64,000 nt of DNA from Nitrospirales bacterium (GCA_031315865.1 JALDRJ010000002.1:3322001-3386000); one strand, 5' to 3'; counted from the first letter of the stretch, positions 8,034-44,944 are shown. Program-made: numbers and translations. Notes: generated from the sequence alone by a model not told the origin.

Positions 8034-8136
8034 CGCCCTATCCGAGCCAGACGTCCTCGGGATCTTAGAGAGGTATTTAGTGGAACAGTCAACATCCCCT
8101 CAAGATTATCTCACATGAACACCGACCAGTCCTTAC

Positions 8137-8171
8137 CTTTAGGGCTCTGAAAGATATTCAGGGTCCTAAAG
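8137..8171 (+). terminator. 15-bp hairpin after the fusion gene
   Basis: Arms at 8137-8151 and 8157-8171 pair over all 15 positions if two G-U pairs are allowed, with a 5-base loop (AGATA). There is no U-tract downstream, so it is either an imperfect terminator or a processing or stability element. The rest of the 428-base gap 8034-8461 shows no supported gene. Confidence 0.5.
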
Positions 8172-8461
8172 CGCTGCTTCACTCCTCCCCCTCCCCCATT
8201 GATCAATGAGCTGACGCTAGCTTTTTCACAAAGTCGTCAACCCAGCAGCCCCTATTTGCAAGGGATAGAAAGTAGTGGTAATCTTGGGCTTTATACGTTT
8301 TCATCTTCCATTATCACTACCGTTTATTTCTTCGCCATTCTCCTTAATCGGGCTTTATCGTCCTTTTTTCGTTCTCGACAATTCAGTGTTCCCCTGAAAA
8401 CAGAACGTTGACACTCGAAATGGTCAACGGCAGATCCGTGAATGTGTAGAGAGGATCATAG

Positions 8462-10615: not shown

Positions 10616-10650
10616 TGCGACATCTCACGTGTCCTTGGCCCATCTGAATG

Positions 10651-11649
10651 TTATAGTGATCCCTGGATTAACCTACCCTCCCAATCTCCTGTGCCTTTTT
10701 TGAGTTTGACCATTCCCTGTTTTCGGTATCCAGCTTTCTTCAGCCAAGCTTGAACGTCCGTGGCCTGGTACGTATTGCCGGATTCGGTGAACAATAACAT
10801 GGTCACGGCAAAAAGATTGGATTCGGCAGGCCGGCTGCCGGCACGATCCACTAAAAAGGTGTCTTGAATCAAAAGACGGCCGCCAGGATTGAGATGGGGG
10901 CGCAGGCGTCTGAATAATTTGAGATTCTCCGCTGCAGAATAAATATGAATGACATTCGACAACCACATGACGTCATATTTCCTCTGAATCGGATCCATCA
11001 AAAAATCCCCGGCCATATACGATACTCGCGCATGAGATCGACGAGTTTGAGCAATTTCCCTGGCCACATCCAAGGCCTCAGGCCGATCAAAGATCGTGGC
11101 GCGCAGTGAGGGATTCTTATCCAGGAATTCCAGCGCATAGGTCCCTGGCCCTCCCCCGACATCTAAGAGAGATGTTGCGGTTTTCAGGTTCAGCTGTCCG
11201 GCCACCTGCCGGGCGACGTCCAATGATCGTTCATGCATGGCCCAGCTAAAACTCCGGCGATACTCAGGCGTCCCAGGCCCTTGGGGCTCGATCGGTTTTC
11301 CAGTTTTAACAGCCTGCGTCAGGCTCGCCCAATCGCTCCATTGTCGTTGGATCAAATCGAGATACGCGCCACGATAATCTTCGCTGTGTCGATTGAGAAG
11401 GCGTCGGGCAAACGGACTATTTTGATAGCGGGCCCCATCCTTGCGAAGGAGTCCGGCGCTCAGCAAATTCCGGCAGAGTATGTCGAGGCCGCGTTGACTC
11501 ACCCGTAAGGTCTTGGCCAAAGCGCGAATCGTCCACTTCTGACCGTTCATGACGGTGAAGAGTTCAAGCTCAAGGGCCGTCAAAAGAATGCGAGGCAATC
11601 GAAACTGAAAAACGGCCTCACGAAAATCTCCAAATTTGTGAATACTCAT
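10651..11649 (-). CDS. O-methyltransferase of the plant COMT/CrtF-like family
   Basis: The 332-residue protein has a winged-helix dimerisation domain at the N terminus (about residues 10-100, LRVSQRGLDILCRNLLSAGLL) and a Rossmann methyltransferase domain with motif I LLDVGGGPGTYAL, then LSNVIHIYSAAEN and LNPGGRLLIQD. This layout is typical of SAM-dependent O-methyltransferases acting on aromatic or polyketide hydroxyls, and of hydroxyneurosporene methyltransferase. A GAGGGGG ribosome site lies just upstream of the start. It faces the histidine kinase gene, with ends 35 bases apart. The substrate cannot be read from the sequence. Confidence 0.85.
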   Translation of the reverse strand: MSIHKFGDFREAVFQFRLPRILLTALELELFTVMNGQKWTIRALAKTLRVSQRGLDILCRNLLSAGLLRKDGARYQNSPFARRLLNRHSEDYRGAYLDLIQRQWSDWASLTQAVKTGKPIEPQGPGTPEYRRSFSWAMHERSLDVARQVAGQLNLKTATSLLDVGGGPGTYALEFLDKNPSLRATIFDRPEALDVAREIAQTRRSHARVSYMAGDFLMDPIQRKYDVMWLSNVIHIYSAAENLKLFRRLRPHLNPGGRLLIQDTFLVDRAGSRPAESNLFAVTMLLFTESGNTYQATDVQAWLKKAGYRKQGMVKLKKGTGDWEGRLIQGSL

Positions 11650-29151: not shown

Positions 29152-30201
29152 TCATTCCCGCTTTGTTTCAACCCTCTGAGTAAAGTCTTCACGACTCATG
29201 TGAAACGAGGACTGCAGATTACTCCACGTATAAAACGCAGGATAAGGCACTCGCTCTTTATTCATGAGCCCCCATGCCGATTCGACTGGCTGTCCACTTT
29301 GTTCAGCTTTCCAAGGCAATGAAAATGCCTCAAAAGAAGTGGCGAACGAAACCCATACTTGAGAATCAACTTGAGAATACACCAGTCGTTTTTCTTTCAG
29401 ATACATGTCCCAGAATTTCTTTTGCGACTGAGGCGTAAAATGTCGTTCTCCAGCTTGAGGAAATCCGGTTTCTTTCACTAGCACAGGTTTGTGTGCTTTT
29501 TCCATTAATCCAATGGCCTGGTTACGCGTCCAGAAGACCGCATCTTTAGGCGGAAGAGCAGGCTTTTCCCATACCGGATGAATATTCGGGGCCAGAAAGT
29601 CCCCGAAACGATAGAGGGCGACGTCACGATACTGGCTCATCGGCTCACTCGTGGTGATGGGAACCGAAAGATCAGGACCGAGCTGCATTTGCAGAAAATT
29701 TTTGGCCAGAACCAGATCGTCCATCGTATAACGATGAAAGTACAGACCTTCATTACCTAGGCATATAGCCAGGGCCATCTCATCGGCATATTGATGAACG
29801 AGCGTGATGACGCCTTGAATTTCTCTCGTCGAACGAGCGCCCCAAATTCCGAGAATGACTGCGCGAAAACCAAGCGACTTGGCTTTTTCCAGAATGATCG
29901 GAGTCACTCTTGGGTGATAACTATAGACCACCAACCCGTCGAAGACGGATCGAAGAGCGAGGAGGTCCTTTTCAATCGAAAGCGGTGAGGGCAAATGAAA
30001 GTTTTCCCCATGACGGGGATCAAAATCAGAAGGTGAATAATCGATCAGCACCGGTGGCCGTTTTGCATCGGTTAGATACGAAAAAAATGGAACATTTTTC
30101 GTACCAGAGGCTCTTTCGCCATAGGCCTGGTCTGTGAGTGCCAGTGTCGTACATTGAAAGACCAGAAAAAACCAAACAATCAGTCTGTATACCCGTTTCA
30201 T
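29152..30201 (-). CDS. Exported GH17-like glycosidase/transglycosylase, paralogue 1
   Basis: A 349-residue protein with a signal peptide (MKRVYRLIVWFFLVFQ, cleavage probably near DQAYG). The TIM-barrel pattern fits glycoside hydrolase family 17: the likely acid/base Glu151 in CLGNEGLYF and the likely nucleophile Glu244 in VKETGFPQ, matching the NE and E-GWP motifs of beta-1,3-glucanases. AGGAG lies nine bases before the ATG at 30201. It shares the same landmarks with the 305-residue protein at 37119-38036 and is probably its paralogue. It stands outside the six-gene glucan-type series but close to it. Hydrolysis or remodelling of a beta-glucan is inferred. Confidence 0.8.
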   Translation of the reverse strand: MKRVYRLIVWFFLVFQCTTLALTDQAYGERASGTKNVPFFSYLTDAKRPPVLIDYSPSDFDPRHGENFHLPSPLSIEKDLLALRSVFDGLVVYSYHPRVTPIILEKAKSLGFRAVILGIWGARSTREIQGVITLVHQYADEMALAICLGNEGLYFHRYTMDDLVLAKNFLQMQLGPDLSVPITTSEPMSQYRDVALYRFGDFLAPNIHPVWEKPALPPKDAVFWTRNQAIGLMEKAHKPVLVKETGFPQAGERHFTPQSQKKFWDMYLKEKRLVYSQVDSQVWVSFATSFEAFSLPWKAEQSGQPVESAWGLMNKERVPYPAFYTWSNLQSSFHMSREDFTQRVETKRE

Positions 30202-30442
30202 GACATTTCTCCTGATCGAAACAACCCATGGAAGATCCATAGGCTTTTTCGGCTGCGTTACAGGAGAAATGAACTGACATTAGGGCGATACAATCATGGT
30301 TTCTCTATCTATATGATTGCATTCATTGACATTAATTACGCGATGTGGATAGTTTGTGAGATTGGGCATGGAAGAGCCATGCATGACGTGAGGGATGGCC
30401 TGAAGGGATGATCGAACAGCAACGTACGAGAGGAACACCCAC

Positions 30443-32893
30443 GTGACACAGATAGCGTTTTACATCGGGTTGTTCTTGATTACGTCATGTACGTTGATGT
30501 TGCAGGTCATTCAGACCAGGATACTTTCGGTCGTGACGTGGTACCACCTGGCTTTTTTTTCCATCAGCATGGCGATGTTTGGCCTTACGGCCGGAGCCGT
30601 TTGGGTCTATGTCCGTCGTGATCGCTTTACGGAAAACACACTTTCCTTTGACCTTTCCTACTATAGTGCTGCGTTTGCGGTCACGACAGCCTTGTGCTTC
30701 ATGATTCAGATGACCTTGGCTCCTGTTGTGTGGTACTCGATCAATTCAATTTGGACATGGATCGAGTTAGCTCTCTGCTTGGCCTTGCCTTTCGTGTGCT
30801 CAGGGATAGTCGTAAGCCTGGCTCTGACTCGAAGTCCGTTTCCCCTCGGCCGTGTATACGGCGTAGATCTAGCGGGAGCTGCAGTTGGTTGCCTTGGAGT
30901 CTTGTTTGTACTTGATCAGATCGATGCCCCATCGGCTGTCCTGTGGGTATCTGTCGTGGCAGCGTTAGGGGCATTGTGTTTCCGCAGCTCCGGCATGGGA
31001 ACAGCTCCTCAAATACTTCCACCGTTTTATGCCATCTTCCGACATCGGACAGTCATCTTTTCGGTACTTTTTCTCTGTGCCGTGTTCAATGGACTCACTG
31101 AGTATGGATTTCAACCTCTCGTCATCAAAGGCAGATTTGAAGGTCCACAGGACCCCATTTTCTTGAAATGGAACAGTCTTTCTCGAGTCGCGGTTTATCC
31201 AATGGGGGAAACCACCCCATATTTATGGGGACCTTCTCCCACACTTCCACACGCGAAGTATGCCGTTGAACAACGAAGACTATATATTGATGGAGATGCT
31301 GGGACTGTCGCGACTCGTTTTACCGGAGATCTTGATGAGGTAAGGTATTTACAATACGACATCACGAACCTTGCCTATCATTTGCCAGATCGAAGCCGTA
31401 CCGCCATCATCGGAATTGGAGGAGGACGAGAAATTTTATCTGCGGCCGTGTTTGGATATCGACAGATCGTCGGCATTGAAACAAACCCCATTTTCATTGA
31501 CCTGTTGACCCAAGAACCGAATTTTTCCGATTTCACCAACATCACGAAATTGAACGGCGTGACACTCATCATGAGCGAAGCGCGCAGTTGGTTTTTACAA
31601 ACAGAACAAACCTTCGACGTGATTCAGCTAACATTGAACGATACATGGACGGCCACCAATGCCGGAGCTCTTTCTTTGAGTGAAAACGGCCTCTATACGG
31701 TCGAAGCATGGAAAATTTTCATGAATCGATTGCGTCCACAGGGAGCGTTGTCCGTCAGCCGCTGGTATGATCCAAAGACACCCGATGAAGCGGCACGTCT
31801 GCTCAGTCTAGCTTCTGCCACCTTACTTGACATGGGAGTGAAAGAGCCTTTTCGCCACATTTTCATGGCAAAATCTGAAAACATCGCAACTCTGATCGTA
31901 GCTCGTGAGCCCTTTTCTTTTCATGATCTCACGGCACTGAACCAGACTATCCTTCGATACCAGTACGGAATGTTCGTTCACCCTTCATCGGAATCCAGCT
32001 TTCGCATCTTTGAAAGCATCGTGACCGCTCATGATCGTAAGGAATTGGAAGAGTTGACTTCCCGTCAAGAGTTTGATCTCACGCCAGCCACCGATGACCG
32101 TCCGTTCTTTTTCAATCAGCTCCCGTTAAGGAATCCATTCGAGACCTTCTCGCTCGCCAGACGTCTGCTCGACGAAAAAAACAAGGACCATGGCATCCGT
32201 TATGGAAATCTTGTCGCGACTGCAACATTGATCTTTCTCTTTATCGTCTCTCTGATCTTGGTGCTGTTGACGATCGTGATGCCTTTGCGAGGAGCCCTTA
32301 CAAACACGGGTAGAAAATTTGTGATGAATGGGACCTTATACTTTCTACTTATTGGCATCGGATTTATGGTGGTCGAGATCAGTTTACTCCAGAGACTAAG
32401 CATCTTTTTGGGACAGACGGTCTCGCTCAGTGTGGTGTTATTTACACTCATCCTATTCAATGGGATCGGAAGCCTTTTTTCGGATAGTATCACGCTTGAT
32501 CGCAGTTGGAAGTTTGCGACTTGGTCACTGCTGACGGGAGGATATCTTATGGCCCTTCCCATGTGGCTACCTGATGTATTGTTGATGTTCGGCAATCATA
32601 GCCTGTCACACAGAGCTATGCTATCTATCATTGTCATCGCTCCGGCAGGATTGCTCATGGGATTCGGGTTCCCAACCGGGATGCGGGCGATCGCTTCGAT
32701 CGATCGAACCCCAACGGCGTGGTTTTGGGGAATCAGTGGTGCAGCGGGCGTGCTGGCCTCTGTCGTTGCCGTTTCGACAAGTATCGCGTTTGGAATCAGC
32801 ACGACCTTAACGATCGGAGCATTGTGTTATGTGTTGCTCTTTCCAATCATTCTTTCCTCTGTTCGGGCGCCAGATCTAAAAAGAGCCTACTAA
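30443..32893 (+). CDS. Polytopic membrane protein with spermidine-synthase-like domain
   Basis: An 816-residue protein with three parts: about seven membrane spans at the N terminus (residues 1-200), a soluble spermidine-synthase-like methyltransferase-fold domain with AIIGIGGGREIL near residue 320 and VVGIETNP-like spacing after it, and six or so further spans at the C terminus (about 590-810). Fused permease/spermidine-synthase proteins of this kind are known but their function is not established. The start is GTG with AGAGGA about eight bases upstream. It is not clearly linked to polyamine genes here. Its position next to the glucan-type locus may mean a role in envelope modification, but that is a guess. 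Confidence 0.75.
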   Translation: MTQIAFYIGLFLITSCTLMLQVIQTRILSVVTWYHLAFFSISMAMFGLTAGAVWVYVRRDRFTENTLSFDLSYYSAAFAVTTALCFMIQMTLAPVVWYSINSIWTWIELALCLALPFVCSGIVVSLALTRSPFPLGRVYGVDLAGAAVGCLGVLFVLDQIDAPSAVLWVSVVAALGALCFRSSGMGTAPQILPPFYAIFRHRTVIFSVLFLCAVFNGLTEYGFQPLVIKGRFEGPQDPIFLKWNSLSRVAVYPMGETTPYLWGPSPTLPHAKYAVEQRRLYIDGDAGTVATRFTGDLDEVRYLQYDITNLAYHLPDRSRTAIIGIGGGREILSAAVFGYRQIVGIETNPIFIDLLTQEPNFSDFTNITKLNGVTLIMSEARSWFLQTEQTFDVIQLTLNDTWTATNAGALSLSENGLYTVEAWKIFMNRLRPQGALSVSRWYDPKTPDEAARLLSLASATLLDMGVKEPFRHIFMAKSENIATLIVAREPFSFHDLTALNQTILRYQYGMFVHPSSESSFRIFESIVTAHDRKELEELTSRQEFDLTPATDDRPFFFNQLPLRNPFETFSLARRLLDEKNKDHGIRYGNLVATATLIFLFIVSLILVLLTIVMPLRGALTNTGRKFVMNGTLYFLLIGIGFMVVEISLLQRLSIFLGQTVSLSVVLFTLILFNGIGSLFSDSITLDRSWKFATWSLLTGGYLMALPMWLPDVLLMFGNHSLSHRAMLSIIVIAPAGLLMGFGFPTGMRAIASIDRTPTAWFWGISGAAGVLASVVAVSTSIAFGISTTLTIGALCYVLLFPIILSSVRAPDLKRAY

Positions 32894-33046
32894 GATGACA
32901 AGTATCGATTTCGAAAAATATAGCGGTAGGAGTTTTAGCCACTAGAGCTTTCAGTTTCGTGCCTGGAGGAAATTTCAAATCCATGGCCTCTGAGCTATGA
33001 TAAAGTCATCATGCGAAAAGCAGACTGAACATTGGAGAAGTTGAAC

Positions 33047-33472
33047 ATGAGGATATGGAGTGTAATTTGGTGCCTCTTGTGGCTCACGTTGCTGGCTCTG
33101 CCTGCCATGGCCGATGATGGTCAGGGAGAATCGATCGTTTCAGTACGTATCGATCAGCCCGCGAATGGAGATTTAGGCGAGTGGAGGACAAAAGTCTCGG
33201 GGACCGTCTCAAACTCCTTGGCCAAGATTTGGGTCGTGGTTCGTCCTCTGGAAACAAGAGACTTCTGGGTTCAACCTCGGACGACAGTGGAGGCGAATGG
33301 AGAATGGGAAACACTTATCTATTTAGGCGGAGAAGACTCTTCACACGCAGGAAAAATATTTGATGTGCAGGCGATAGCGAACCCAGAATATCCTTTAAAT
33401 GAAGGACTAATCTTGCCGGGTTGGCCAAGAGCAGAGGGCAAGTCCAATGTCGTAAGAGTCGTGCGAAAGTAA
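33047..33472 (+). CDS. Small secreted protein with Ig-like beta-sandwich
   Basis: About 141 residues with a clear signal peptide (MRIWSVIWCLLWLTLLALPAMA). The mature part looks like a single Ig-like domain: IDQPANGDLG, a KVSGTV strand, then KIWVVVRPLETRDFWVQP and GEWETLIYLGG. The ATG at 33047 is preferred, with GGAGAAG six bases before it; an upstream TTG adds five residues. The same layout is seen in the N-terminal module of the exported methyltransferase on the opposite strand (33510-34859). Function unknown; probably a binding module. Confidence 0.75.
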   Translation: MRIWSVIWCLLWLTLLALPAMADDGQGESIVSVRIDQPANGDLGEWRTKVSGTVSNSLAKIWVVVRPLETRDFWVQPRTTVEANGEWETLIYLGGEDSSHAGKIFDVQAIANPEYPLNEGLILPGWPRAEGKSNVVRVVRK

Positions 33473-33509: not shown

Positions 33510-34859
33510 CTATTTAGTTAACCACACATTAAAATTTCCAAACCCCTCTTTGGCAGGATTATGGGAATGGCTAAATCGTTTAATCGTAAATCCTGCTTCT
33601 TGAACCACAGCCTTTAACTCCTCAGTGTTATAATGCCAGATGTGATCGTCAGTCCACTCAGCCTTTTCGTTCAGTCGTGGCAAATCCGATAGTTGTTGAT
33701 AATATTTATAATTACGTCCCCAGCCAATATCGGCATCAGGCGTCGAGAGAAAGAAAGACCCACCTGGCTCGAGCGCGTCATAAATTTTCTTTAACGTTGG
33801 GACAGGCTGAAAATTGAGATGCTCCATGACTTCGGTCATGATGATGACGCTGAATTGTTTGTCGTCCGGTAACCGCCCCCGTTCGATATCGCCTTGAACA
33901 TGCGTGAGGTGATATTTCTCGTTAAAGCTATTGATGCCATACGCGCCAAAATAATCATGTATATCAAAACAAATTCCTTCCGCCCCGTAGATGGTCGTGG
34001 CATACGCCAGTAATGTCCCAAACCCACAACCCAGGTCAAGTATGCGTTTCACCGGCTTATTTTTGGTATAAATCCGATCAATGACATCAACAGCCATCCA
34101 GCCGGCTATTTCAGACCAAAAATAGACCTCATTCTTGCTGTATTTATCCTTATAATATGAAAATCCAGTTTTCGACTCTTCTTGCGCAAGATCATCCTGA
34201 ATCCTCTTGACTAAGGGAATAAGCTGGAGTGGCTGGTGTTTTGAATCTTTTGAGACACTAATTCTCTGTCGCTCAACCAGGCCTTCAGGAAGGTTGGTCT
34301 GTGAAATCCCTTGATAAATTTGTCCCTGACTAGTTGTGTGTTGATATTGTTGTTGAAGGAACAACGACGCCACCTTTGTCGCCGTATAAATCACGATCTC
34401 GTAACGTTGAGGAGGATCACCGAAATGAGCGTTGACCGACCAATGCCCCCGGTCTTTGTTCGCAGGAGCGGCAACGTGAGAATCTCCATACTGTGGCCAG
34501 CCTACGCCTTTGGTCTTTTCTGGCCAAATCATGACCCAAATATCGTCCCCCAGAGATTCAGCGTAAGTTCCCAGGAGGGTCACGTCATCGCCGACGATGG
34601 AACCATTTTTTGGATACGTCATCTCGACAAGTTTGTTCCTGACCCCTTTGTCTGTGTCCGTATAGCCATGAAAATGTCCCGCATCGTTCTCTGCCCAGGC
34701 ATACCCAGAGAAAAGACCGACAAGTATCCATAACAGAATCACAGGGAGGAGGCTTGGAAGCCATGTGGCCACCTTGAGAGATTTGCAGGCAGAAGGTTTT
34801 TCCCTCCTGATAAGGAAGAACATATACTGAAGTCTGATCATCGTCCATATATTGTTCAT
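33510..34859 (-). CDS. Exported SAM-dependent methyltransferase with Ig-like module
   Basis: A 449-residue protein. Residues 1-56 hold a positively charged start (RREKPSACKSLK), one hydrophobic segment and a signal-peptidase-like end (SGYAWA). Residues about 78-160 form an Ig-like module (MTYPKNGSIVGDD, DIWVMIWPE). The rest is a class I methyltransferase: ILDLGCGFGTLLAY, FDIHDY, VIIMTEVMEHLNF and ALEPGGSFFLSTPD. The topology places the enzyme in the periplasm or on the membrane's outer face, where SAM is not expected. GGGAG lies six bases before the ATG. It is the last gene of the minus-strand glucan-type series, 32 bases after the glycosyltransferase. It may modify the polymer; alternatively the hydrophobic segment is misread and it stays inside. 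Confidence 0.8.
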   Translation of the reverse strand: MNNIWTMIRLQYMFFLIRREKPSACKSLKVATWLPSLLPVILLWILVGLFSGYAWAENDAGHFHGYTDTDKGVRNKLVEMTYPKNGSIVGDDVTLLGTYAESLGDDIWVMIWPEKTKGVGWPQYGDSHVAAPANKDRGHWSVNAHFGDPPQRYEIVIYTATKVASLFLQQQYQHTTSQGQIYQGISQTNLPEGLVERQRISVSKDSKHQPLQLIPLVKRIQDDLAQEESKTGFSYYKDKYSKNEVYFWSEIAGWMAVDVIDRIYTKNKPVKRILDLGCGFGTLLAYATTIYGAEGICFDIHDYFGAYGINSFNEKYHLTHVQGDIERGRLPDDKQFSVIIMTEVMEHLNFQPVPTLKKIYDALEPGGSFFLSTPDADIGWGRNYKYYQQLSDLPRLNEKAEWTDDHIWHYNTEELKAVVQEAGFTIKRFSHSHNPAKEGFGNFNVWLTK

Positions 34860-34891
34860 GAAATCTCCCTTATACCGTATGGTGGATCACG

Positions 34892-36415
34892 CTATTTCAA
34901 CGAAGCGATGAGAAAGGCAGGAACCAACAGAAGTCCCCAGGTATCAAACCATCCAAAAACCCATCCTTCTGTAAAATAAAACGCAATAAACAGAACACAA
35001 ACTGAAAAGTTCACGACCCGGACAGTGGCTGAGGCACTGGTCAATGGACCCACCTGATAACGCAGAAATTTGGGCGTCCGAAACCAGTCAAGCCTAGCCC
35101 CGAACAAACCTTTCATGTTCGCGGCGATGTACGTCAGCATCACGCTCCAGCCATACCATAGAACCATCGGAAAATGGAACAAATCTCTGTAGGAATGACG
35201 TTTGAAGACCACCATCACGAATGGCTGAATCAGGTTTGACGCCAAGCAAATGCCAATCGCAATTACGAATGGAATCTCCACAAAACTCAAGAGGTAGAGG
35301 TAATATTCGACCTCATATGAATTCCATCCGGTTGCCAGCCACCAGACCGTCATGATACCCAACACGATGACCGCGCCCGTAAGCAGGGGGGTCGCATAGT
35401 AGGCGTTTTGTCGAATCGCGGAGCACTTCTCCGCAACACTCAAGTTTGAGGAGGTGACGATCTTCCAGAAATACTCCCGCAGAACTCGTGCCGTGCCGGC
35501 ACACCAGCGTTCTTGTTGTCGGCGAAAATGGTCATGGGAAAACGGGACTTCTCCATGATTCACCACGCTACCTAAATAGGTGCCCTTCCACCCTGCAAGC
35601 CAAAGTCGGTTGGTGAGATCAATGTCTTCCGTCAAATGACCAGGCGTAAACCCACCCACTCGTTCGATGGCCGACAAACGAAGCATGGTACAACAGCCAG
35701 AGAAAAGTGTTGGATGGTTGAGAACCTGACGTCCTTCAAAATCCACGTAATAACATCCCTCTTCAGACAAGGCGACATATTTTTGAAAGACATTCATGCC
35801 ATAGGGAAAAGCCACTCGTTTTGTTTGAACAAACGCCACATTCTCTTGGGCCTCCAACACTTCAAGGGTTCGTTCTAATGCGTCTGGCTGTGGTTTCCAG
35901 TCTGCATCGAGCAGATACATGTACTCGGTCCCACGCTGTTTCAGGTAGGCCTGAAGTTTTCGTAAACTTCCGGCTTTGAACCCCTGTTTGCAAGGACGGT
36001 GAAAAAGCACGAATTCATCGGATTCCCATATTTCAATCGGAACCTCCTTCACTTCTCCGTTTTCCGATTGAACCTCCTGGACAAACGGATGATCAACGAG
36101 CTGCGTACATCCACGGGCGATGGCAAATTGACGAATTTGGTGAATGATTTCAGGATCCGTTGAATCGTCCGCTAACACCGTAAACCGATTAGGATACGTT
36201 AAACGCTCGCACCCCCGAATGGTCCGTTCCAACACATACTTTTCATTATAGGAGACGATCACGACAGCGACTTCTTTCCCACTATGTCGCGTCCGAGGAA
36301 TCGAAGGCTTGCGGAGGCTCGCGAAGGCATAGAGATAGTTATAAAACGCAAAGGCAAAAAACGCCACAAGGCACGTGAGTTGAAGGATGAATATCAGAGA
36401 GGCTGACCAAACCAT
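34892..36415 (-). CDS. Processive family 2 glycosyltransferase (cellulose/curdlan synthase-like)
   Basis: A 507-residue membrane protein. One hydrophobic segment comes first, then a GT-A domain with the processive GT2 motifs: D83/D84 in LADDSTD, D170 and D172 in LLDADWKP, TED at 262-264, and QQERW at 300-304. Five or so membrane spans follow. These are the marks of enzymes that polymerise and extrude a beta-glycan using a UDP-sugar. No PilZ domain is fused. The neighbours include GH17 proteins, a pairing known from beta-1,3-glucan systems such as NdvB/NdvC, so a beta-glucan product is likely; cellulose cannot be excluded. GTG starts at 36424 or 36421, overlapping the upstream stop, are alternatives. 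Confidence 0.88.
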   Translation of the reverse strand: MVWSASLIFILQLTCLVAFFAFAFYNYLYAFASLRKPSIPRTRHSGKEVAVVIVSYNEKYVLERTIRGCERLTYPNRFTVLADDSTDPEIIHQIRQFAIARGCTQLVDHPFVQEVQSENGEVKEVPIEIWESDEFVLFHRPCKQGFKAGSLRKLQAYLKQRGTEYMYLLDADWKPQPDALERTLEVLEAQENVAFVQTKRVAFPYGMNVFQKYVALSEEGCYYVDFEGRQVLNHPTLFSGCCTMLRLSAIERVGGFTPGHLTEDIDLTNRLWLAGWKGTYLGSVVNHGEVPFSHDHFRRQQERWCAGTARVLREYFWKIVTSSNLSVAEKCSAIRQNAYYATPLLTGAVIVLGIMTVWWLATGWNSYEVEYYLYLLSFVEIPFVIAIGICLASNLIQPFVMVVFKRHSYRDLFHFPMVLWYGWSVMLTYIAANMKGLFGARLDWFRTPKFLRYQVGPLTSASATVRVVNFSVCVLFIAFYFTEGWVFGWFDTWGLLLVPAFLIASLK

Positions 36416-36417
36416 CG

Positions 36418-37122
36418 TCACCACTCATGCAATCTCGAGGTTTTATGAATATACCGGGACAACGCTCCAAGCAGGATAAAACAGGCAATTCCCAAGAGCG
36501 ACGGGAGAAGGCCCCAAGAAATTTCTCCGCCCATGAGTGTCCGCGCCGACGTTACCTGAGGAGAATGAGAAACGACGGAATCAACTAACGACGGGTTAAC
36601 GAGCCAATAAAAACCCAGATGGCGTACCGAAAATATTCGAAACGTTTCAGCCTGTTCTGCACCCGACCAATGTTGGTCTACCGCAAGCTCTTGAGAAAAA
36701 TGTTTCTCCCATACTCCCTTCACGTTCTCCAGCAGCACAAGACTTTCATGCAAGCCCGCCGTGTATAGTGTTGCGCGCTGGACGCGGGATTGGATTTCAT
36801 CGGGAGCCGTGAGCAGTAATGTTTGTCTCCCATCTCGGGTCAGCAATTCTCGAAGGATGAGATGCCCCTCGGAAAGACCTGGAGCATAAACGGTGATCAT
36901 TTTCACGAACGCATGTTGTGGTCGTGCAACCAATACATTGCCTGACTTTTCTAATTTTACGAATTCACGAACCGCCGTTGACGATCCTCCCTGGGTAAAC
37001 AGTGGACCACCCTGTGTCACGCCGCCCATGGTTCCCAGGACTACGGAGGAACAAAGTAGAACCGATGAGCAAATAATCAAGAGACTGATGGAAAGGGTCT
37101 TGAACATCATCGGTCTTCTCAT
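36418..37122 (-). CDS. Bitopic exported membrane protein of the glucan-type locus
   Basis: A 234-residue protein that I do not recognise. It begins with a signal-like segment (FKTLSISLLIICSSVLLCSSVVL) and ends with one membrane span (LLPSLLGIACFILLGALSRYI) and a short basic tail. The part between should lie in the periplasm. The start overlaps the GH17 stop by four bases (ATGA), and the stop abuts the glycosyltransferase start, so the three genes are tightly coupled. A role as an accessory subunit of the synthase, comparable in layout to a BcsB-like partner, is only inferred. Confidence 0.72.
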   Translation of the reverse strand: MRRPMMFKTLSISLLIICSSVLLCSSVVLGTMGGVTQGGPLFTQGGSSTAVREFVKLEKSGNVLVARPQHAFVKMITVYAPGLSEGHLILRELLTRDGRQTLLLTAPDEIQSRVQRATLYTAGLHESLVLLENVKGVWEKHFSQELAVDQHWSGAEQAETFRIFSVRHLGFYWLVNPSLVDSVVSHSPQVTSARTLMGGEISWGLLPSLLGIACFILLGALSRYIHKTSRLHEW

Positions 37123-38036
37123 GGAGCAATCGACTCGACAGCCGGCTTGGGTCGACCTTGAGCATCATGTAGTCCCCAATGTCCCTCAGCTTCTGGTTGG
37201 TTAAACATCTCATGTTTCCAGGGCTGATCAAAGGCTTCAAAGTACACGAACTTTACGCCAGTCGATCGCAGTGTCTCAAAGAATTTTTTTTGCATTTCTT
37301 CGCTGCGGGGGTGATTCGTTTTGGAAGGCAGCCCCGTTTCTTTCAGGATGATTTTTTGTCCGGTTGCCGCTTCCAAATAGTCGGATCGAGCGACGACCCA
37401 ATCGACCGCTTCTTGGTAATGCGTTTTCCCCCCCCAAAAGGGATGCGTGTTAGGAAAGAGCCAATCGGAATGCTCCCACAACCATTTGCGGTAAGGTCCT
37501 TCAAGATAGCTATCAATCGGCTCACCCGTGGTGACCGGTTTCTTTGTAGCGTTTCGCAATGCCGACATCTGCTCTTCCAGTTCATCTACGGTGTATCGCA
37601 GGAAAAAAAGTCCCTCATTTCCCAAACAGTACCCATCAACATATTCTCGTTGAGCCAGAGCATTGTTCCACTCCTCATCCGAGTAAATATCCCAAATTCC
37701 CATGATGATCATCCCGGAAAACCCGACGGACCTCGCGATCTTGGGAATGGCCCCCATCGCTCCCCGCGCTCCATACGTGACAAGGCTCTCAAATCCAAGC
37801 TCATGCAATTGTCTGAGTTCGTGACTGATTTGATCCCGTGCAGAAGGTTGAAACTCAGACCCCGGGAAAAAACCGCGAGGTTGATAGGCAATGCCAGGAG
37901 GAACGAACGCTTGAAGAATGTCTTCGCTTTTGGAAGCGACGGCCTTCTCGATAGGCAGAGAAAAGATAAGGCAGATCAGCACTCCGCTAAACCATACGAT
38001 GAGGCACCGCGTCATATGTTGAGTGGAATGAGTCAT
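37119..38036 (-). CDS. Exported GH17-like glycosidase/transglycosylase, paralogue 2
   Basis: A 305-residue protein with a signal peptide (CLIVWFSGVLICLIFSLP, cleavage near KAVAS). The GH17-like active site is visible: Glu141 in YCLGNEGLFF and Glu233 in LKETGLPSK. The motif order and spacing match the paralogue at 29152-30201. In known bacterial systems GH17 domains act as beta-1,3-glucanosyltransferases that branch or cyclise the chain. The position directly before the membrane protein and GT2 genes supports a role on the nascent polymer. An ATG at residue 8 is an alternative start. Confidence 0.82.
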   Translation of the reverse strand: MTHSTQHMTRCLIVWFSGVLICLIFSLPIEKAVASKSEDILQAFVPPGIAYQPRGFFPGSEFQPSARDQISHELRQLHELGFESLVTYGARGAMGAIPKIARSVGFSGMIIMGIWDIYSDEEWNNALAQREYVDGYCLGNEGLFFLRYTVDELEEQMSALRNATKKPVTTGEPIDSYLEGPYRKWLWEHSDWLFPNTHPFWGGKTHYQEAVDWVVARSDYLEAATGQKIILKETGLPSKTNHPRSEEMQKKFFETLRSTGVKFVYFEAFDQPWKHEMFNQPEAEGHWGLHDAQGRPKPAVESIAP

Positions 38037-38060
38037 GGTCTATCACCGGGTGAACAACCG

Positions 38061-40772
38061 TCATGGTTGAGAGTTGGAGGGGGTACCGAACCAGATATCA
38101 TCTAGGTAGAGTGTGCCCGACATTTGCTCCCATTCAAATACGACTTGCAACGTCTCCAAATGAGTCAAGTCCACGCCATGTTGAGCAAAGGCCTCGAGAG
38201 GAATCGCCACGGATTGCCATTCCGTGGATACAGTCATGTAATCCTCAAGATTCACGCCCCACCGAACGTTGCCATCATCAAGGTAAATGTTGGGTCTCTC
38301 TCCACCTTCTCCTCCCCGGACACGAAATGACACCCTGGAACATCGAGAACAATCAACCCCCCCCAAATCGGTCGCCCAACCGGCATAGGTCAAGAGATCG
38401 CTGGCGTAGGCATTGATGGCGCCGATGTTTCCACCGTACGAAAGCCGATACAACCCATTGGGTGATCCCCTCGTGTACGTACCATTGATGGCAGCCGCAC
38501 CATTCGCGAAAGTCCGGTGTTCGCCGCCTAGTAAATTTTTCCCATGCCATTGTTCAAAACTGTCCACATGATACGCACGCACATGTTTGTGAAATTGAAT
38601 ATCATCGAGAAGAATGGTGCCTTTGGACTTTGTACTCATATGGGCAAAGGAAAAACTGACATTTTCAACCGCTCCCCAATTGAGTTCAGAACCAAAGACC
38701 GTCAGAGGGATCTCGATCCGCTTCCAATCCGTATCGAGCCTTTCTGGATGATAGGTACTGAGAAGAATTTTTCGTTCTTGACCGGATGAATCCCGAATCC
38801 CGACAAACATGTCCTGATTCAAGTCCGCACTTTTGACGGAAAAACTCAAGGCATAAAACCCGCGAAGGTCAAGACGTGGGAGGGTCGTGGCATACCCGCT
38901 GTATGTCTTGGGCCTGGAAACATCATACGAAAGAACGAGTGAATGCCCACGCCCTGAAGCATCATCAGAGGCAAAGGCTATTGTAATGATGCCACTAGCA
39001 GGATTGGATGGATTTTGAAACGTAAACATTGGACGTCGAAAATGATTTCTTCCTTTTTTTTGATTGAAATTGTCAACCACAAGAACATCTTCATTCGGAT
39101 GGAGACCCGCCTCAATTTCTCGACTAATCCCAAAGTTATCGATGTAATACGTGGCTCCAGCAGGGTTGTGTCCATACTGAAGTCGCATGTATCCCGTGAC
39201 ATCCCAGTCTGCCATGATCAATTCATCAACGATGAAATTTCCGGTTTTCGTACGCAACATGTCATAGAAGTTGAATTGCGTCGCATGCCATTCCCCATCA
39301 GCCACAATATCCGGCACAGTGCCGATCTGTGCGATATTCACGCGTTTGTGTAGAAGTTCCATGGGATCATCGGTCAACCTGACTTGATACCATCTTCCTG
39401 ACACTTTCGCGTATAGATTGGTCTTCACCCCTGGGTCCATTCGATAATCAAACTCAATGATGGGAAATTCGCGGGCGCTGAAAGGTGTTGTCCTAATATT
39501 GACAGCAAAATTGCCTCCGGGTTGGGAGTTCACAATTTTCAAAGCTTTCGTTCCGTCAAATGTGGAGGCCCCATCGATACTGACGGTCGCTCCCGCTTGA
39601 CCGTCACGGTTGGACCATGATCCGACTCCCTTCTCAAAATCTTCCTGAACAAGATAATGTTGGGAAGTTGGCACTCCGGCATTGACCTGATGAATTGTTT
39701 TGGTCCAAGAATTAACAGGGATGGGATCGGACCCTTCCCCTACCCGATTCGTAGACATCACGGCATACAATGCATGTAATCGCCTGACACGGGTGAACAG
39801 GGCACCCGATTCGATTTCCTGTTGAAATGTGGGGAGATGGACCCACTCCTGAATCGCAGGATCGTATCCGTAAATGGCCATACGCTCTCGTTCAGAATGG
39901 TGAAGATTTTCCGGGATTTTTATTTCTAGAACGGCGCTTTTGGTAAACCTCTCACCTGGTTCTTTGACCTCATACACATCACCAATAAGTTGTCGGCCAT
40001 GACCAGATATCTTGGGTCTCTGATTCGTCGATTGAATAAGGATGAGTCTAAATGGGGCGGTAATAGACTGCTCCTGGATCGATAGCCTCACCTGCTCATC
40101 GGGGCTGATCACCTGCCCACCCCAAGCATTGGGTATCACATTCGCTACATGAACCGTGACTCGATCCTCGATGCGTTGTCCATCCGTCGAGATAACAACC
40201 AGGCGAATGGTGTAGGTTCCCTTTAAATTAATCGGATGATCTGGAGGGTGAGTCGGGAGATAGACATAATTTTTCAGCCCCGTATCCCAGGTACCAAGAT
40301 TGCCTTCGATGGAAAGGTCCGCGGACAGATAGAGGGGATTGGGAGTCACATTCTGGGTTTGAGGAGTGGTTGATCGGCGCAAAAGTTCCCAATGGGTTGG
40401 ATTGGAGCCTTGGCCATATTCGACTCGATATTCTTTGAACTTTTTCCCGTGGGCTTTACCAAAAATTGGCACATTTGCCCGAACTAACGCCTGATGGGTT
40501 GGAATAAAAATCTCTGCTGTTAATGCGTCGGGTTGACCCTGGGCACTAACCCTGGATAACACTGGAGTCTTTTCTGTAGAGACTTGGATAAATGTCGGGT
40601 CAGTGCTGATAATATCCTCTTGACACCCTCCACCGAGCGCGCAAGGAAATTGCTCCATTTGCATTTCGCTACCCACTCTTTCAGAAAATGGGCTGACTTG
40701 AGCCATTACCATCAACTGACTTGATAGCATCACGCTTGTGACAAAACCCGTCAGCATTGTTTGAACCTTCAT
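38061..40772 (-). CDS. Large exported protein with three carbohydrate-binding-like modules
   Basis: A 903-residue protein with a signal peptide (MKVQTMLTGFVTSVMLSSQL). A beta-sandwich with the pattern VEYGQGSNPTHWELL follows at about 100-150. The C-terminal half has three jelly-roll modules of about 160 residues, starting near VQEDFEKGVGSW, VVDNFNQKKGRN and HVDSFEQWHGKN, and ending in YIDNFG, LLDDIQF and YLDDIWFG. This is the CBM4/9/11-like layout found in glycan-binding proteins. GGGGAGGG lies just before the start. It stands 24 bases before the GH17 gene. It probably binds the polymer in the periplasm or at the surface; no catalytic domain was recognised. Confidence 0.75.
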   Translation of the reverse strand: MKVQTMLTGFVTSVMLSSQLMVMAQVSPFSERVGSEMQMEQFPCALGGGCQEDIISTDPTFIQVSTEKTPVLSRVSAQGQPDALTAEIFIPTHQALVRANVPIFGKAHGKKFKEYRVEYGQGSNPTHWELLRRSTTPQTQNVTPNPLYLSADLSIEGNLGTWDTGLKNYVYLPTHPPDHPINLKGTYTIRLVVISTDGQRIEDRVTVHVANVIPNAWGGQVISPDEQVRLSIQEQSITAPFRLILIQSTNQRPKISGHGRQLIGDVYEVKEPGERFTKSAVLEIKIPENLHHSERERMAIYGYDPAIQEWVHLPTFQQEIESGALFTRVRRLHALYAVMSTNRVGEGSDPIPVNSWTKTIHQVNAGVPTSQHYLVQEDFEKGVGSWSNRDGQAGATVSIDGASTFDGTKALKIVNSQPGGNFAVNIRTTPFSAREFPIIEFDYRMDPGVKTNLYAKVSGRWYQVRLTDDPMELLHKRVNIAQIGTVPDIVADGEWHATQFNFYDMLRTKTGNFIVDELIMADWDVTGYMRLQYGHNPAGATYYIDNFGISREIEAGLHPNEDVLVVDNFNQKKGRNHFRRPMFTFQNPSNPASGIITIAFASDDASGRGHSLVLSYDVSRPKTYSGYATTLPRLDLRGFYALSFSVKSADLNQDMFVGIRDSSGQERKILLSTYHPERLDTDWKRIEIPLTVFGSELNWGAVENVSFSFAHMSTKSKGTILLDDIQFHKHVRAYHVDSFEQWHGKNLLGGEHRTFANGAAAINGTYTRGSPNGLYRLSYGGNIGAINAYASDLLTYAGWATDLGGVDCSRCSRVSFRVRGGEGGERPNIYLDDGNVRWGVNLEDYMTVSTEWQSVAIPLEAFAQHGVDLTHLETLQVVFEWEQMSGTLYLDDIWFGTPSNSQP

Positions 40773-40843
40773 GACCCTCCCCTCACGATATGAAACTCAC
40801 TGGATACATGACTTGCAGGTTAAAATGTTTCATGCGTCCTCTA

Positions 40844-41605
40844 TCAGGGAAACGTCACTCCGACAAGACGGCTCTGTCGATCATAACTATACTTGCTGGT
40901 GATCCCATTAGCATTGGTTACTGAAACTAAATTACCGACACTGTCATGCTCATACGAGACGGAACGACCCCGGCCGTCACGTATTGTCCGTATACGGTGG
41001 GTTTCTTGATCATAATAAAAGGTAATAATGTTTCCTTCAGCATCACTGATGGATTCCAAATAGCCATCTGCTCCGTAGGCCAGCGAAATCTTGTTCCCAT
41101 ATTGATTACCTTGGATATGGGTGAGTCTGCCTTTACGACTAAACTCAAACATCGTACCTGCTTCGTCAAGAAATTTGTGCAGCCCCTCTCCGTCACTCTT
41201 GATCAGACGTGAATCCTTCTCGTCTCCAGTCGATAAGGTTCCCGACTCCGTTTTAGTAAAAACGGTATTCTGACCCTTACCATCAAATAATTGAATTCTC
41301 CTATCAGAAGTATTACGTATATGCATCAAATAATTATGTGTCCATCGCTTCCCTACAGGGCTATCAATTCTGGTATGTGAAAGATAGCTCCTGACAATTT
41401 CGATCTGGACGCCCTTTCCATGAAAGCCAATATCAATAGCTGAATCGTTTCCTCTTGGTCCCACCCACCAGCCAAACTTATGAGGAGATGCTTCTTGTAA
41501 CGGCTCACTACGACTACCCCCAGATATCGTACATCCGGCCAGGAACGTGAGCATCACAACGAACACTACCAAGGTGTCTTTCCGAAATACGCGTCGTCCA
41601 AGCAC
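40844..41605 (-). CDS. RHS/YD-repeat lipoprotein
   Basis: A 253-residue lipoprotein. The lipobox is FLAGC near residue 24. The rest follows the N-terminal part of RHS proteins: SPVGKRWTHNYLMHI, LFDGKGQNTVF, then YD-type repeats such as LAYGADGYLESISDAEGNIITFYYD and VSYEHDSVGNLVSVTNANG, split over several units. There is no RHS core or toxin tip, so this is a short shell segment, not a toxin. The GTG at 41605 is well supported by GGAGAG six bases upstream. It is the first gene of the minus-strand series. YD repeats often bind carbohydrate, which fits the setting. Confidence 0.8.
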   Translation of the reverse strand: MLGRRVFRKDTLVVFVVMLTFLAGCTISGGSRSEPLQEASPHKFGWWVGPRGNDSAIDIGFHGKGVQIEIVRSYLSHTRIDSPVGKRWTHNYLMHIRNTSDRRIQLFDGKGQNTVFTKTESGTLSTGDEKDSRLIKSDGEGLHKFLDEAGTMFEFSRKGRLTHIQGNQYGNKISLAYGADGYLESISDAEGNIITFYYDQETHRIRTIRDGRGRSVSYEHDSVGNLVSVTNANGITSKYSYDRQSRLVGVTFP

Positions 41606-42263
41606 TCAATGCTCTCCAATTTACAATCGCTCTCCACCTCATCAAAAAGGTGCTCTCGCTTCTACAAAAGTTTTCTCTAAAACGATGTGCCCGTAGATAA
41701 GGTTGGATATCTATGAGTTTTTTCTCAATTTAGCCACACACATTCTCTCTCACGTAGAAAAGACTGAGCATAGTATACGGGGCTAAACAATAGGATTACA
41801 ACCGGCCAATATGTCAAAATGTTCAACAATTACAAAGTGTTCTGCGTTCTTACGTTGAAAGTCAAAGAGTTCCTGATTGGTAGAGTCCTCCAGGCTGTCC
41901 TACCCTTGAGGCCAGTCTATGGGTAGTACCGGCACTCTTACGGTCCCATGGTCCTGGCCTTGCCTTATTGATTCTACCGGTAGCTCTAAGGTAGACTCCC
42001 TCGATTTTTCAAGGTTTTCATCATTTTTATGTACTAGCTGCCTCCTGGAAAATTTAGTATTTTCCATCAGCCTTCATCTTCAGTCATTTATTTCTTCATA
42101 CTTTATTTGTACCGGTCTCAACCAATATTCCAACACTCGATTTTCAATTGATGTCATGTCATTACCGTTAACATGCAACATGACTTTCTCAACGTGAGTA
42201 AATCTGTTTGAAGGCCATCATTTTCATGTTTCGAGCCTGACATCTACCAAAAGGAGCAGAACA
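41606..42263. other. Long divergent intergenic region
   Basis: These 658 bases separate the RHS lipoprotein and beta-barrel genes and hold no supported gene. TACCGG occurs three times (41927, 41975, 42111), the second inside the perfect palindrome CTACCGGTAG (41974-41983). CTACCC (41900-41905) and GGGTAG (41921-41926) form an inverted repeat. The region probably carries the promoters and regulatory sites of both units. I could not match it to a known riboswitch. Confidence 0.5.
41773..41802 (-). promoter_or_regulatory. Candidate promoter for the glucan-type series
   Basis: On the minus strand TTGTAA (41802-41797), an 18-base spacer and TATACT (41778-41773) resemble a sigma-70 promoter, four and five of six positions. 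It would leave a leader of about 160 bases before the RHS lipoprotein start. Confidence 0.35.
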
Positions 42264-44126
42264 TTGTCTGGTATAGCCATGCGCACAGCAATCGATAGTT
42301 CAATCATGAATCAGGCGGAACAGTGCTCTATGCTGTGGAAACGCGCAGGGTTAGGGCTTTTCGTATTTCTTCTGAACCTGCCTCTTTCTTTGGCAACTGC
42401 CGCAGAACGAATAGATCCACATGCCTGCTCCTGGTATGCAGGAAAAGTTTCACCCTCAGACTATCAGGAGGAAATCGAACGCCGCATTGCAACTCCACTC
42501 GCGGAAGATTCGCCTGAATATCCTTACCGGCTCTGTATCATCGCCGAACTCATGAAACGGAATGGTGATGCACGCGCCACTTCTTACTATGAACAAGCGA
42601 TTGCACTCCATCCTGAGGAACCCGGCCTAGAACTCATATATGGTGAATATTTGCAATGGATGCGGGGGGTAAAAAACGGCGGAATGGTCGTCGAAGCGAA
42701 AGAACATTACAGACTGGCGCAAGAAAAAATCGCGAGCCTCAAGGCTCAAGATCGATGGGGAGCGCGCAATGATGAAAAAACCAGCGATGACATCAAGAAA
42801 GCCATTTTCTACCTCAACCAAGCCAATGGGGTAGGCATAGCCGTCGGAGGCAAGGAACCAACCGTATTTTTCAGTACGATTACGGAAACACGGAATGATA
42901 CGGTGGCCTTTGAATATCAATGGGTTGACAGTCGGTCCTTTAACTCAGAGGCACTCTATTCCCAAAGCAGGAATAAGCTTGCGAGACCGCTGACAAAAGA
43001 TGAATTGAAAGGCATTGCCCGGCATAAACTGAGCGTGGTGACCTCAAATCGCCTACGAATTCAGCTTGGAAAGTTACGCGCGCTAGATTTCACATATCGT
43101 TACTTACGCTTTAACGATGCCAAAATTCCCAATTATAACGAACCCAAAAGAAACGTAAATGATGTTGGCCATGAATATGGAGTCTCTCTCTCTAACGACT
43201 TTCAACTGCCTATGGCCATTGACTTATTCGTTCAGGCAGGGGCCAAGTTTATTCGCCGGACGACATCTGCAGAAGGATTTAATGATCGCAAGGAGGATTC
43301 TCAATTGTTCAATTTGCTTTTGGGTGCTTCAAAGCTGATTGGACAAGGAAAAATGACTGGAGAACTTGAATACAGGCATCAATTGTGGGATCCAGGGTAC
43401 AATTGGGAATCAATCGATACAATCCAGGGCAATCTTCTTTACCAATCTCGTCTGTTTGGAACCGATCGTTGGATCCTCGATGGAACATACGTGTACCAAT
43501 TTGTAGATCAAAGTTCATACAATCCATTCAACGACAATATGAAATCTTTCATCGTGCAGGCAACCTACGTCTTTACCGTCCCGCAATTTATAAGAGATCG
43601 TGTAGGCGGAGGAGATGTCTTTGGGGGGTATGCGGATGCTTCGACACTCATTGCCTCGCAATCGGAAAACGAGGTAAAAAAACGCCAATTTTTCGGAGGT
43701 TTTGCGCTGCGACGAATTGATCTGGCGCCATCACTCAATCCATTTGATATCCACTTTCGCAGTTCGTACTACATTAGCGATGTGAGACAAGACTCCTCAC
43801 AAGACCATTCTCAGTGGAGAAACGAATTGACATTTGGCTACCGTCTCGTCGAGAACCGTCAAGTGCAATGGCTCCCGAATAGGAATAGCATGATTCAACC
43901 TGCCTTACTGAACCTCGAAGTGCCAGTTCGTCATGACGGCTCCGTCGAAGGGCTCAGAGAATACGCCAATTATCGCGTAGGCTTACAATTAAAAGGCGAT
44001 TTTATCTACTCGCAACATAACGTATCCTTCCCCTTCTATGGCACGATAGGATACGCCTTTGAACGGTTCTACCATCTGAAAGAAAATTTCCACATCTTCC
44101 TTTTTCGACTCGGAACGGGTTTCTAG
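42264..44126 (+). CDS. Outer-membrane beta-barrel protein with N-terminal TPR-like part
   Basis: A 620-residue protein. A signal peptide (LGLFVFLLNLPLSLATAA) is followed by a helical, TPR-like part (about residues 60-180, with ATSYYEQAIALHPEEPGLELIYGEYL). The remaining 400 residues show alternating amphipathic strands and the chain ends in Phe (FRLGTGF), as in outer-membrane barrels. The TPR-plus-barrel layout resembles polysaccharide exporters such as BcsC or AlgK/AlgE. The start is TTG, supported by AGGAG seven bases upstream. It is divergent from the glucan-type series, so export of that polymer is a fair inference. Confidence 0.78.
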   Translation: MSGIAMRTAIDSSIMNQAEQCSMLWKRAGLGLFVFLLNLPLSLATAAERIDPHACSWYAGKVSPSDYQEEIERRIATPLAEDSPEYPYRLCIIAELMKRNGDARATSYYEQAIALHPEEPGLELIYGEYLQWMRGVKNGGMVVEAKEHYRLAQEKIASLKAQDRWGARNDEKTSDDIKKAIFYLNQANGVGIAVGGKEPTVFFSTITETRNDTVAFEYQWVDSRSFNSEALYSQSRNKLARPLTKDELKGIARHKLSVVTSNRLRIQLGKLRALDFTYRYLRFNDAKIPNYNEPKRNVNDVGHEYGVSLSNDFQLPMAIDLFVQAGAKFIRRTTSAEGFNDRKEDSQLFNLLLGASKLIGQGKMTGELEYRHQLWDPGYNWESIDTIQGNLLYQSRLFGTDRWILDGTYVYQFVDQSSYNPFNDNMKSFIVQATYVFTVPQFIRDRVGGGDVFGGYADASTLIASQSENEVKKRQFFGGFALRRIDLAPSLNPFDIHFRSSYYISDVRQDSSQDHSQWRNELTFGYRLVENRQVQWLPNRNSMIQPALLNLEVPVRHDGSVEGLREYANYRVGLQLKGDFIYSQHNVSFPFYGTIGYAFERFYHLKENFHIFLFRLGTGF

Positions 44127-44368
44127 TCCATGCCGTCACAGTCTTCAGTGAACTTGGGTCGGATGGCCCCATAGCTGAGCTTGGGCTCGACATCCCTCAT
44201 CATATTCCATGCCTCCACATTTTGTCCTTCCATTTCAGGTCGGTTTTTCGATAATTTGAACTTGCAGGTGTTTCTGGCAAATCGGTAGACCGAATGATAT
44301 GTTCATCCGCCGGACATTCTTCTTTGGGACATAGCTTGAGTCTGAACTGATCGCGGGAGAATTTGAGC

Positions 44369-44944
44369 ATGCGATGGATTTCTCGAACTCTTATCCTTTT
44401 TTATGCTGGTCTTGTCGGATGTTCCTCCGCCTTAACCTGGGTGCCAGACCACCAGTCTCATCAACCTTCCTGTGTCCCTGACAGACTGCCTTCGTGGGAA
44501 GATTTCTCCAAACGAGAGACCCCCACGGCTACTCCGGCAGCACAGACGGCCATTCGGTTTCTCCTCCATGATTCACCGCCTTACCTTATCGCGAAATTCG
44601 ACCATGAGCATTCATGGGTTAAACCTCAACCGGCCAATCCTGAGTCGCCAGCAGAGTGGATCGCCTCACAAAAATTATTGGCGCATGAACAGGTTCATTT
44701 CCTCATCAGCTGCCTTCTGGTTCGACAAGCCAATCGTGTGACCCATACTGAAGAAAACCCACGAAAAATGCTGGAGTTAGTCAAATCGGTTGCTCAACGG
44801 GTGAATGTCCAATATGATACCGACACGAAACATGGCACTGATGAGAAGGCCCAAATGACCTGGGAAACGCAAGTCCAAGAGCAATTCGAAGAAGTGACCG
44901 CGCAACCCAGTGAAGCATTCGGCACACAGGAAAAACCTCGGTAA
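44369..44944 (+). CDS. Lipoprotein with HExxH motif (DUF922-like)
   Basis: A 191-residue lipoprotein with lipobox LVGC near residue 18. The central LLAHEQVHFLISCLLVRQANR contains HEQVH, the zinc-protease-type HExxH motif, in a setting like the DUF922 family (HEQxHF). The second metal ligand is not obvious. The ATG at 44369, with GGGAGAA upstream, is preferred over a TTG two codons earlier. The downstream gene is on the same strand. Protease activity is possible but not shown. Confidence 0.7.
   Translation: MRWISRTLILFYAGLVGCSSALTWVPDHQSHQPSCVPDRLPSWEDFSKRETPTATPAAQTAIRFLLHDSPPYLIAKFDHEHSWVKPQPANPESPAEWIASQKLLAHEQVHFLISCLLVRQANRVTHTEENPRKMLELVKSVAQRVNVQYDTDTKHGTDEKAQMTWETQVQEQFEEVTAQPSEAFGTQEKPR

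Follow-up and report, generated by a model that had tools for sequence, protein, structure and literature searches.

Gene content and layout of the locus

The window analysed here, a stretch of 64,000 nucleotides from a Nitrospirales bacterium (G000:C2:3322001-3386000), belongs to a 3.78-Mb genome in two contigs and contains what is apparently a so far undescribed polysaccharide synthesis locus. Its core consists of three minus-strand genes (Table 1): gt2, encoding a processive membrane glycosyltransferase of family 2 (GT2), gh17a, encoding an exported enzyme resembling glycoside hydrolase family 17 (GH17), and between them bitop, encoding a bitopic membrane protein. A preliminary description of this DNA had read it as a probable beta-glucan locus of seven open reading frames (ORFs), all of which are present. 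The six on the minus strand are closely packed as described, with gaps of 71, 24, -4, -7 and 32 bases from rhs to the methyltransferase gene, and the bitop frame overlaps both gh17a and gt2. The span of 33510-44126 given there was too short, as synteny within the genus places a second GH17-like gene, gh17b, in the locus as well.

Comparison with the same-genus relatives NPIRA01, NPIRA02, NPIRA04 and OFTM51 supports a syntenic polysaccharide synthesis locus with the gene order tprbar (divergent)–rhs–cbm–gh17a–bitop–gt2–variable slot–gh17b–groEL. The gh17b gene sits at the same place in the four same-genus genomes readable there, the window's included; the NPIRA04 contig stops before that side. 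What had been called an unusual gene set thereby becomes a three-gene core with a partner of carbohydrate-binding module (CBM) and RHS proteins and a set of exchangeable decoration genes. Promoter and terminator scans gave signals no higher than shuffled sequence.

Table 1. Positions and characteristics of the genes of the locus, in window coordinates, and of the related prophage genes
Feature	Coordinates	Strand	Length (aa)	Place or role	Basis
GH17-like enzyme b (gh17b), exported	29152..30240	-	362	Outer locus border, adjoins groEL	Same-genus synteny, clade with gh17a
Polytopic membrane protein	30443..32893	+	816	Accessory slot, membership uncertain	Kept in OFTM51 only
Small secreted protein	33032..33472	+	146	Accessory slot	Kept in OFTM51 only
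Exported methyltransferase-fold protein	33510..34859	-	449	Exchangeable accessory	PF13489 E 8.2e-21
GT2, processive membrane glycosyltransferase (gt2)	34892..36424	-	510	Core gene	PF13632/PF13641
Bitopic protein (bitop)	36418..37122	-	234	Core gene	Signal peptide, ~125-residue beta-sandwich, C-terminal transmembrane helix
GH17-like enzyme a (gh17a), exported	37119..38036	-	305	Core gene	PDB GH17 profile, catalytic Glu pair
Secreted CBM protein (cbm)	38061..40772	-	903	CBM11-/CBM30-like modules and weak ZU5-like part	Pfam
RHS/YD-repeat lipoprotein (rhs)	40844..41605	-	253		PF05593, PF20148, lipobox
Probable tetratricopeptide-repeat (TPR) and beta-barrel outer-membrane protein (tprbar)	42264..44126	+	620	Divergent, genus-specific exporter candidate	Same-genus conservation
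Prophage GH17 homologue and J-type tail protein	L088:5339-6301 and 6542-11296 (G003:C28); also L103, L104

The three-gene core

The GT2 protein gives the top PF13632 match of the whole genome (74.6 bits), and its DDS, DAD, TED and QQERW motifs and transmembrane (TM) helices bear out the processive character first assigned to it. D, DxD, TED and QQERW are invariant across 15 aligned sequences. Translation may in fact begin at a conserved internal ATG, residue 4. The closest solved relative is BcsA (profile E 7.6e-15). A Pfam scan finds no PilZ domain in the protein, and its scores lie far below the cut-offs of both the cellulose synthase model TIGR03030 (Bcs; 70.5 bits, cut-off 699) and TIGR03937 (PgaC/IcaA; 52.1 bits, cut-off 422.3). 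In two trees, whose references include PgaC, IcaA, NodC, BcsA, BgsA-like proteins and NdvB, the GT2 proteins form a deep clade of their own (support 100/99 and 100/100), outside PgaC/IcaA, BcsA, the BgsA-like proteins and NdvB. A grouping with N-acetylglucosamine synthases, which would have spoken against the original reading, is not what emerges, as the GT2 stands apart from PgaC, IcaA and NodC (no hyaluronan synthase was among the references).

The assignment of the neighbouring enzyme to GH17 is likewise sustained. GH17a of the window matches solved GH17 enzymes (phmmer E 6.8e-6, profile E 4.7e-11) and has the catalytic glutamate pair; Glu141 and Glu233, in GNE and KExG motifs, are invariant in 15 sequences, and the pair of GH17b is invariant too. 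The family model PF00332 matches 14 of 15 gh17a orthologues with E values no higher than 1 (6e-5 for the best); the window's own scores 11.7 bits against a curated cut-off of 28.2. Scanned alone against Pfam at E 0.1, the window's GH17a has no match, nor does a PF00332 search of its genome return one. Its nearest match in plasmid sequences is P. aeruginosa NdvB, and GH17a, GH17b and a prophage enzyme described below form one clade beside the NdvB-type GH17 domains (split 100/100).

A signal peptide and a single C-terminal TM helix are predicted for the third core protein, as expected of a bitopic protein. Its orthologues align in 15 rows, and an AlphaFold model shows a beta-sandwich at residues 50-175 (predicted local distance difference test score, pLDDT, about 90 for the domain) in addition to the C-terminal TM helix, and the sandwich is expected to lie in the periplasm. 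The protein matches no Pfam family, and a Foldseek search with the model returned nothing below 0.001; several of its fold matches are accessory beta-sandwiches of glycosidases. The sandwich was also compared with the ZU5-like region of the CBM protein, and homology was rejected (hhalign probability 0.2%). At every locus bitop separates gh17a from gt2, and in the window its frame overlaps those of both neighbours; this arrangement suggests a subunit that couples GT2 to GH17a.

A scan of the genomes of 84,980 species with short conserved peptides from the GT2 alignment, which more distant members would escape, yielded 15 loci, or 16 with the window. Their carriers are Nitrospirota (among them Candidatus Manganitrophus and OFTM76, a more distant member of the Nitrospirales), Gammaproteobacteria and metagenome-assembled genomes (MAGs) named Deltaproteobacteria. 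The contiguous order gh17a–bitop–gt2, with all three genes on one strand, holds at every one of the 16 loci. A bitop profile matches one of 169 genera, the window's own, among 396 Nitrospirota genomes and, in the phylum of genome G415, the query genome alone out of 398. The module is rare and patchy.

Among representatives, the three core genes resemble one another in their pairwise identities (r 0.79-0.93) more closely than they resemble rpoB (0.59-0.74). GT2 amino-acid identity is 62% between the window and OFTM76 (rpoB 86%), between the window and CSMAG_456, which belongs to another phylum by rpoB (58%), and between nzgw582 and the other gammaproteobacterial carriers (rpoB about 77%). Because the core-gene distances match one another better than they match rpoB, the core was probably transferred as a block and behaves as a horizontally moving unit, with errors in MAG binning as the caveat.

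Partner genes and the probable product

A cbm orthologue lies near the core in 12 of the 16 loci. The glycan-binding character first proposed for the CBM protein is borne out by matches above the cut-off of 27 bits for both CBM30 (46.1 bits) and CBM11 (29.9 bits), and characterised members of CBM11 and CBM30 bind beta-glucans. Its neighbour is indeed an RHS-type lipoprotein (lipobox LAGC; RHS_repeat 46.7 bits, cut-off 22). Elsewhere the two occur as single-ORF RHS–CBM11/CBM30 fusions of 1691-2280 aa (L035:1245-8084, L038:11712-16784 and L046:11560-17511), and those of L035 and L046, which were read through, show by eye the typical RHS-core C-terminal signature; in L044, thrombospondin-type repeats replace the RHS part. 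In the genus of the window this N-terminal RHS portion is cut to a lipoprotein of ~250 aa separate from the CBM protein. The split is alike in four genomes and so is a real fission rather than an assembly error. RHS proteins usually end in a toxin domain; here glycan-binding modules occupy that place, pointing to a possible non-toxin role for RHS proteins.

The slot between gt2 and gh17b varies among species. The methyltransferase gene is restricted to the window and OFTM51, where the slot also encodes a small secreted protein and the 816-aa membrane protein. The methyltransferase, described from the start as exported, has an N-terminal export signal and an S-adenosylmethionine (SAM)-type fold. 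Such a fold behind an export signal is puzzling as to its donor or true location, since one would expect no SAM in the periplasm. The 816-aa protein, with ~14 TM segments, is spermidine-synthase-like by eye and matches no Pfam or NCBIfam model. In NPIRA02 and NPIRA04 the slot carries a small secreted protein, which the 146-aa protein of the window weakly resembles (E 0.006), an AlgX-domain protein (E 2.7e-15) and an MBOAT acyltransferase (E 4e-31). No gene is recognised in the slot of NPIRA01; in that genome an SGNH/non-GDSL-lipase-like gene lies beyond the barrel gene (L027:729-1892). As modification genes are exchanged within this one slot, the polymer may be decorated in a species-specific manner.

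A prophage of NPIRA02 (G003:C28), with terminase, portal, major head, tape measure and J-type tail proteins, carries a GH17 gene directly downstream of J. Its product is 37% identical to gh17b and groups with it (100/99); a scan of viral contigs with the prophage protein found no relative. It is probably a depolymerase that belongs to the phage tail and targets the glycan of the host itself, and since a host-type trimming enzyme occupies the position of a tail depolymerase, the glycan of the locus may be exposed on the cell surface.

The divergent gene had been described as encoding a TPR-plus-barrel outer-membrane protein. This account is confirmed in part: the N-terminal half is helical, numerous strands are predicted and the last residue is Phe, and the TPR matches, in one relative, are sub-threshold. 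The protein is kept in four same-genus genomes at 62-71% identity, and a profile search of the PDB with it came back empty. A small lipoprotein-like gene lies beside the barrel gene (window 44363-44944; also L026:502-1759) and is duplicated in OFTM51.

Taken together, the locus is probably a polysaccharide module of the synthase-dependent type whose GT2 product is most likely a glucan. GT2, with its processive motifs, would polymerise a beta-linked glycan at the inner membrane and extrude it, and a beta-1,3-glucan is the likely product. Anchored by its C-terminal TM helix, the bitopic protein would keep its periplasmic beta-sandwich beside the synthase and in this way link GT2 to GH17a, a role that may be likened to that of the anchored tail of BcsB or of PgaD. 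By its homology and catalytic residues, GH17a would cleave and re-join the emerging chain, as has been proposed for the periplasmic GH17 domain of NdvB, and GH17b may trim or release the polymer. The RHS lipoprotein and the CBM protein could then retain the product at the cell surface or organise it there, while the genes of the variable slot would decorate it according to species, by MBOAT/AlgX O-acetylation or through the methyltransferase cassette. The TPR–barrel protein is a candidate outer-membrane exit in the window's genus, and this is the weakest link of the model.

Several observations weigh against this model. The TPR–barrel protein occurs in the window's genus only, being absent from the other 134 of 135 sampled genera, and its structural model, from four sequences, is poor (pLDDT 34) and too weak for a structure search. 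The fold matches of the bitopic protein are weak and generic, the best of them (VIA Z 7.9, to a dextranase beta-sandwich) being at the level of a common fold. The GH17-like clade falls outside the NdvB-type branch (100/100), and its members have another residue in place of the Trp in the canonical GWP motif. Forcing the GT2 to join NdvB (p-AU 0.175), all beta-glucan synthases (0.455) or the PgaC-type enzymes (0.214) was not rejected, so the GT2 sequence does not dictate which sugar and which linkage are used. Finally, MAG contigs limit both linkage and naming.

The deep GT2 clade, the separate GH17-like clade with its altered motif and the low PF00332 score of the window's GH17a would all suit the same architecture making a polymer other than beta-1,3-glucan, be it of another hexose, an aminosugar or mixed, with the specificity of the GH17-like enzyme changed too. 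The CBM11/CBM30-like modules argue the other way, as do the nearest solved relatives, BcsA and GH17, which are both beta-glucan enzymes, and we judge this alternative rather unlikely. The closest functional model, NdvB, invites a further reading, in which the product is a periplasmic or cyclic osmoregulatory glucan with no exported matrix and the TPR–barrel and CBM/RHS genes are separate neighbours. It would agree with the finding that no exporter was recognised, by eye, beside the core outside the window's genus. However, the CBM/RHS protein is linked to the core across phyla, the O-acetylation genes are of a kind typical for exported polysaccharides, and a gh17b homologue sits at a prophage tail gene. 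Moreover, nzgw582 carries both the separate-gene module and an NdvB-like GH17-GT2 fusion (996 aa, L087:6353-9343), so the two are not simple replacements of each other, and an osmoregulatory product is unlikely. That the GH17-like, CBM and RHS proteins degrade or scavenge external beta-glucan beside an unconnected GT2 is highly improbable: GH17 enzymes are found in laminarin-use loci too (PMC13188888), but gt2 and bitop adjoin gh17a at every locus, and inspection of the readable flanks by eye, with no profile search, revealed nothing SusCD-like.

Beyond the synthase-dependent module itself, we tentatively raise a wider possibility, which is doubtful at present. GT2, the bitopic protein, a separate GH17-like transglycosylase and an RHS-CBM anchor may represent a class of its own among synthase complexes, one that moves horizontally and makes a new, species-specifically decorated surface glycan, attacked by nitrifier phages with a homologue of the host's trimming enzyme.

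Relation to known synthase systems

A search of the literature, including Nitrospirales genome papers, found no account of the locus, which appears to be a real, conserved variant of synthase-dependent polysaccharide systems. Its carrier is a marine nitrite-oxidising type of bacterium, and for work on the surfaces and biofilms of such organisms the locus offers a concrete, testable target.

Several known systems share parts of this architecture. BcsA of the Bcs system is the nearest solved relative of the GT2, and both systems have a TM-anchored periplasmic partner (the bitopic protein here, BcsB there); the GT2 of the locus, however, lacks PilZ, and no BcsB, BcsC or BcsZ model matches there. 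With Pga/Ica the locus shares a processive GT2, a small membrane partner and perhaps a TPR–barrel protein, but its GT2 lies outside the PgaC/IcaA clade and no deacetylase model matches. BgsBA-type loci with a GT2 and an HlyD protein (L059, L092 and L093), which we take to resemble those of mixed-linkage glucan synthases, likewise have a BcsA-like GT2; there the partner is HlyD rather than GH17 and the bitopic protein, and the GT2 clades are separate. The MBOAT and AlgX-domain genes of NPIRA02 and NPIRA04 recall alginate-type O-acetylation (AlgI-like MBOAT with AlgX/AlgJ), although here they are accessory and absent from the window's own locus.

GT2 and GH17 have so far been seen together chiefly in the NdvB fusion. 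In the present locus they are encoded separately, within a three-gene cassette that includes a candidate coupling protein of a novel kind. For the Pseudomonas fusion ('Orphan'), synthesis of a cyclic beta-1,3-glucan was proposed, in which GT2 synthesis is followed by periplasmic GH17 cleavage and cyclisation, and a division of the two functions between separate proteins was explicitly allowed (PMC10237404). NdvB (reference L053) and the locus both combine a periplasmic GH17 bearing the same catalytic pair with a BcsA-like GT2 that lacks PilZ. Unlike the fusion, the locus has separate genes in all 16 cases with bitop between them, its GT2 and GH17 each fall in a different clade (although for GT2 a joining with NdvB was not rejected), and it adds CBM/RHS, decoration and barrel genes. 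The locus is thus a separate-protein case of the NdvB model in architecture, not by membership.

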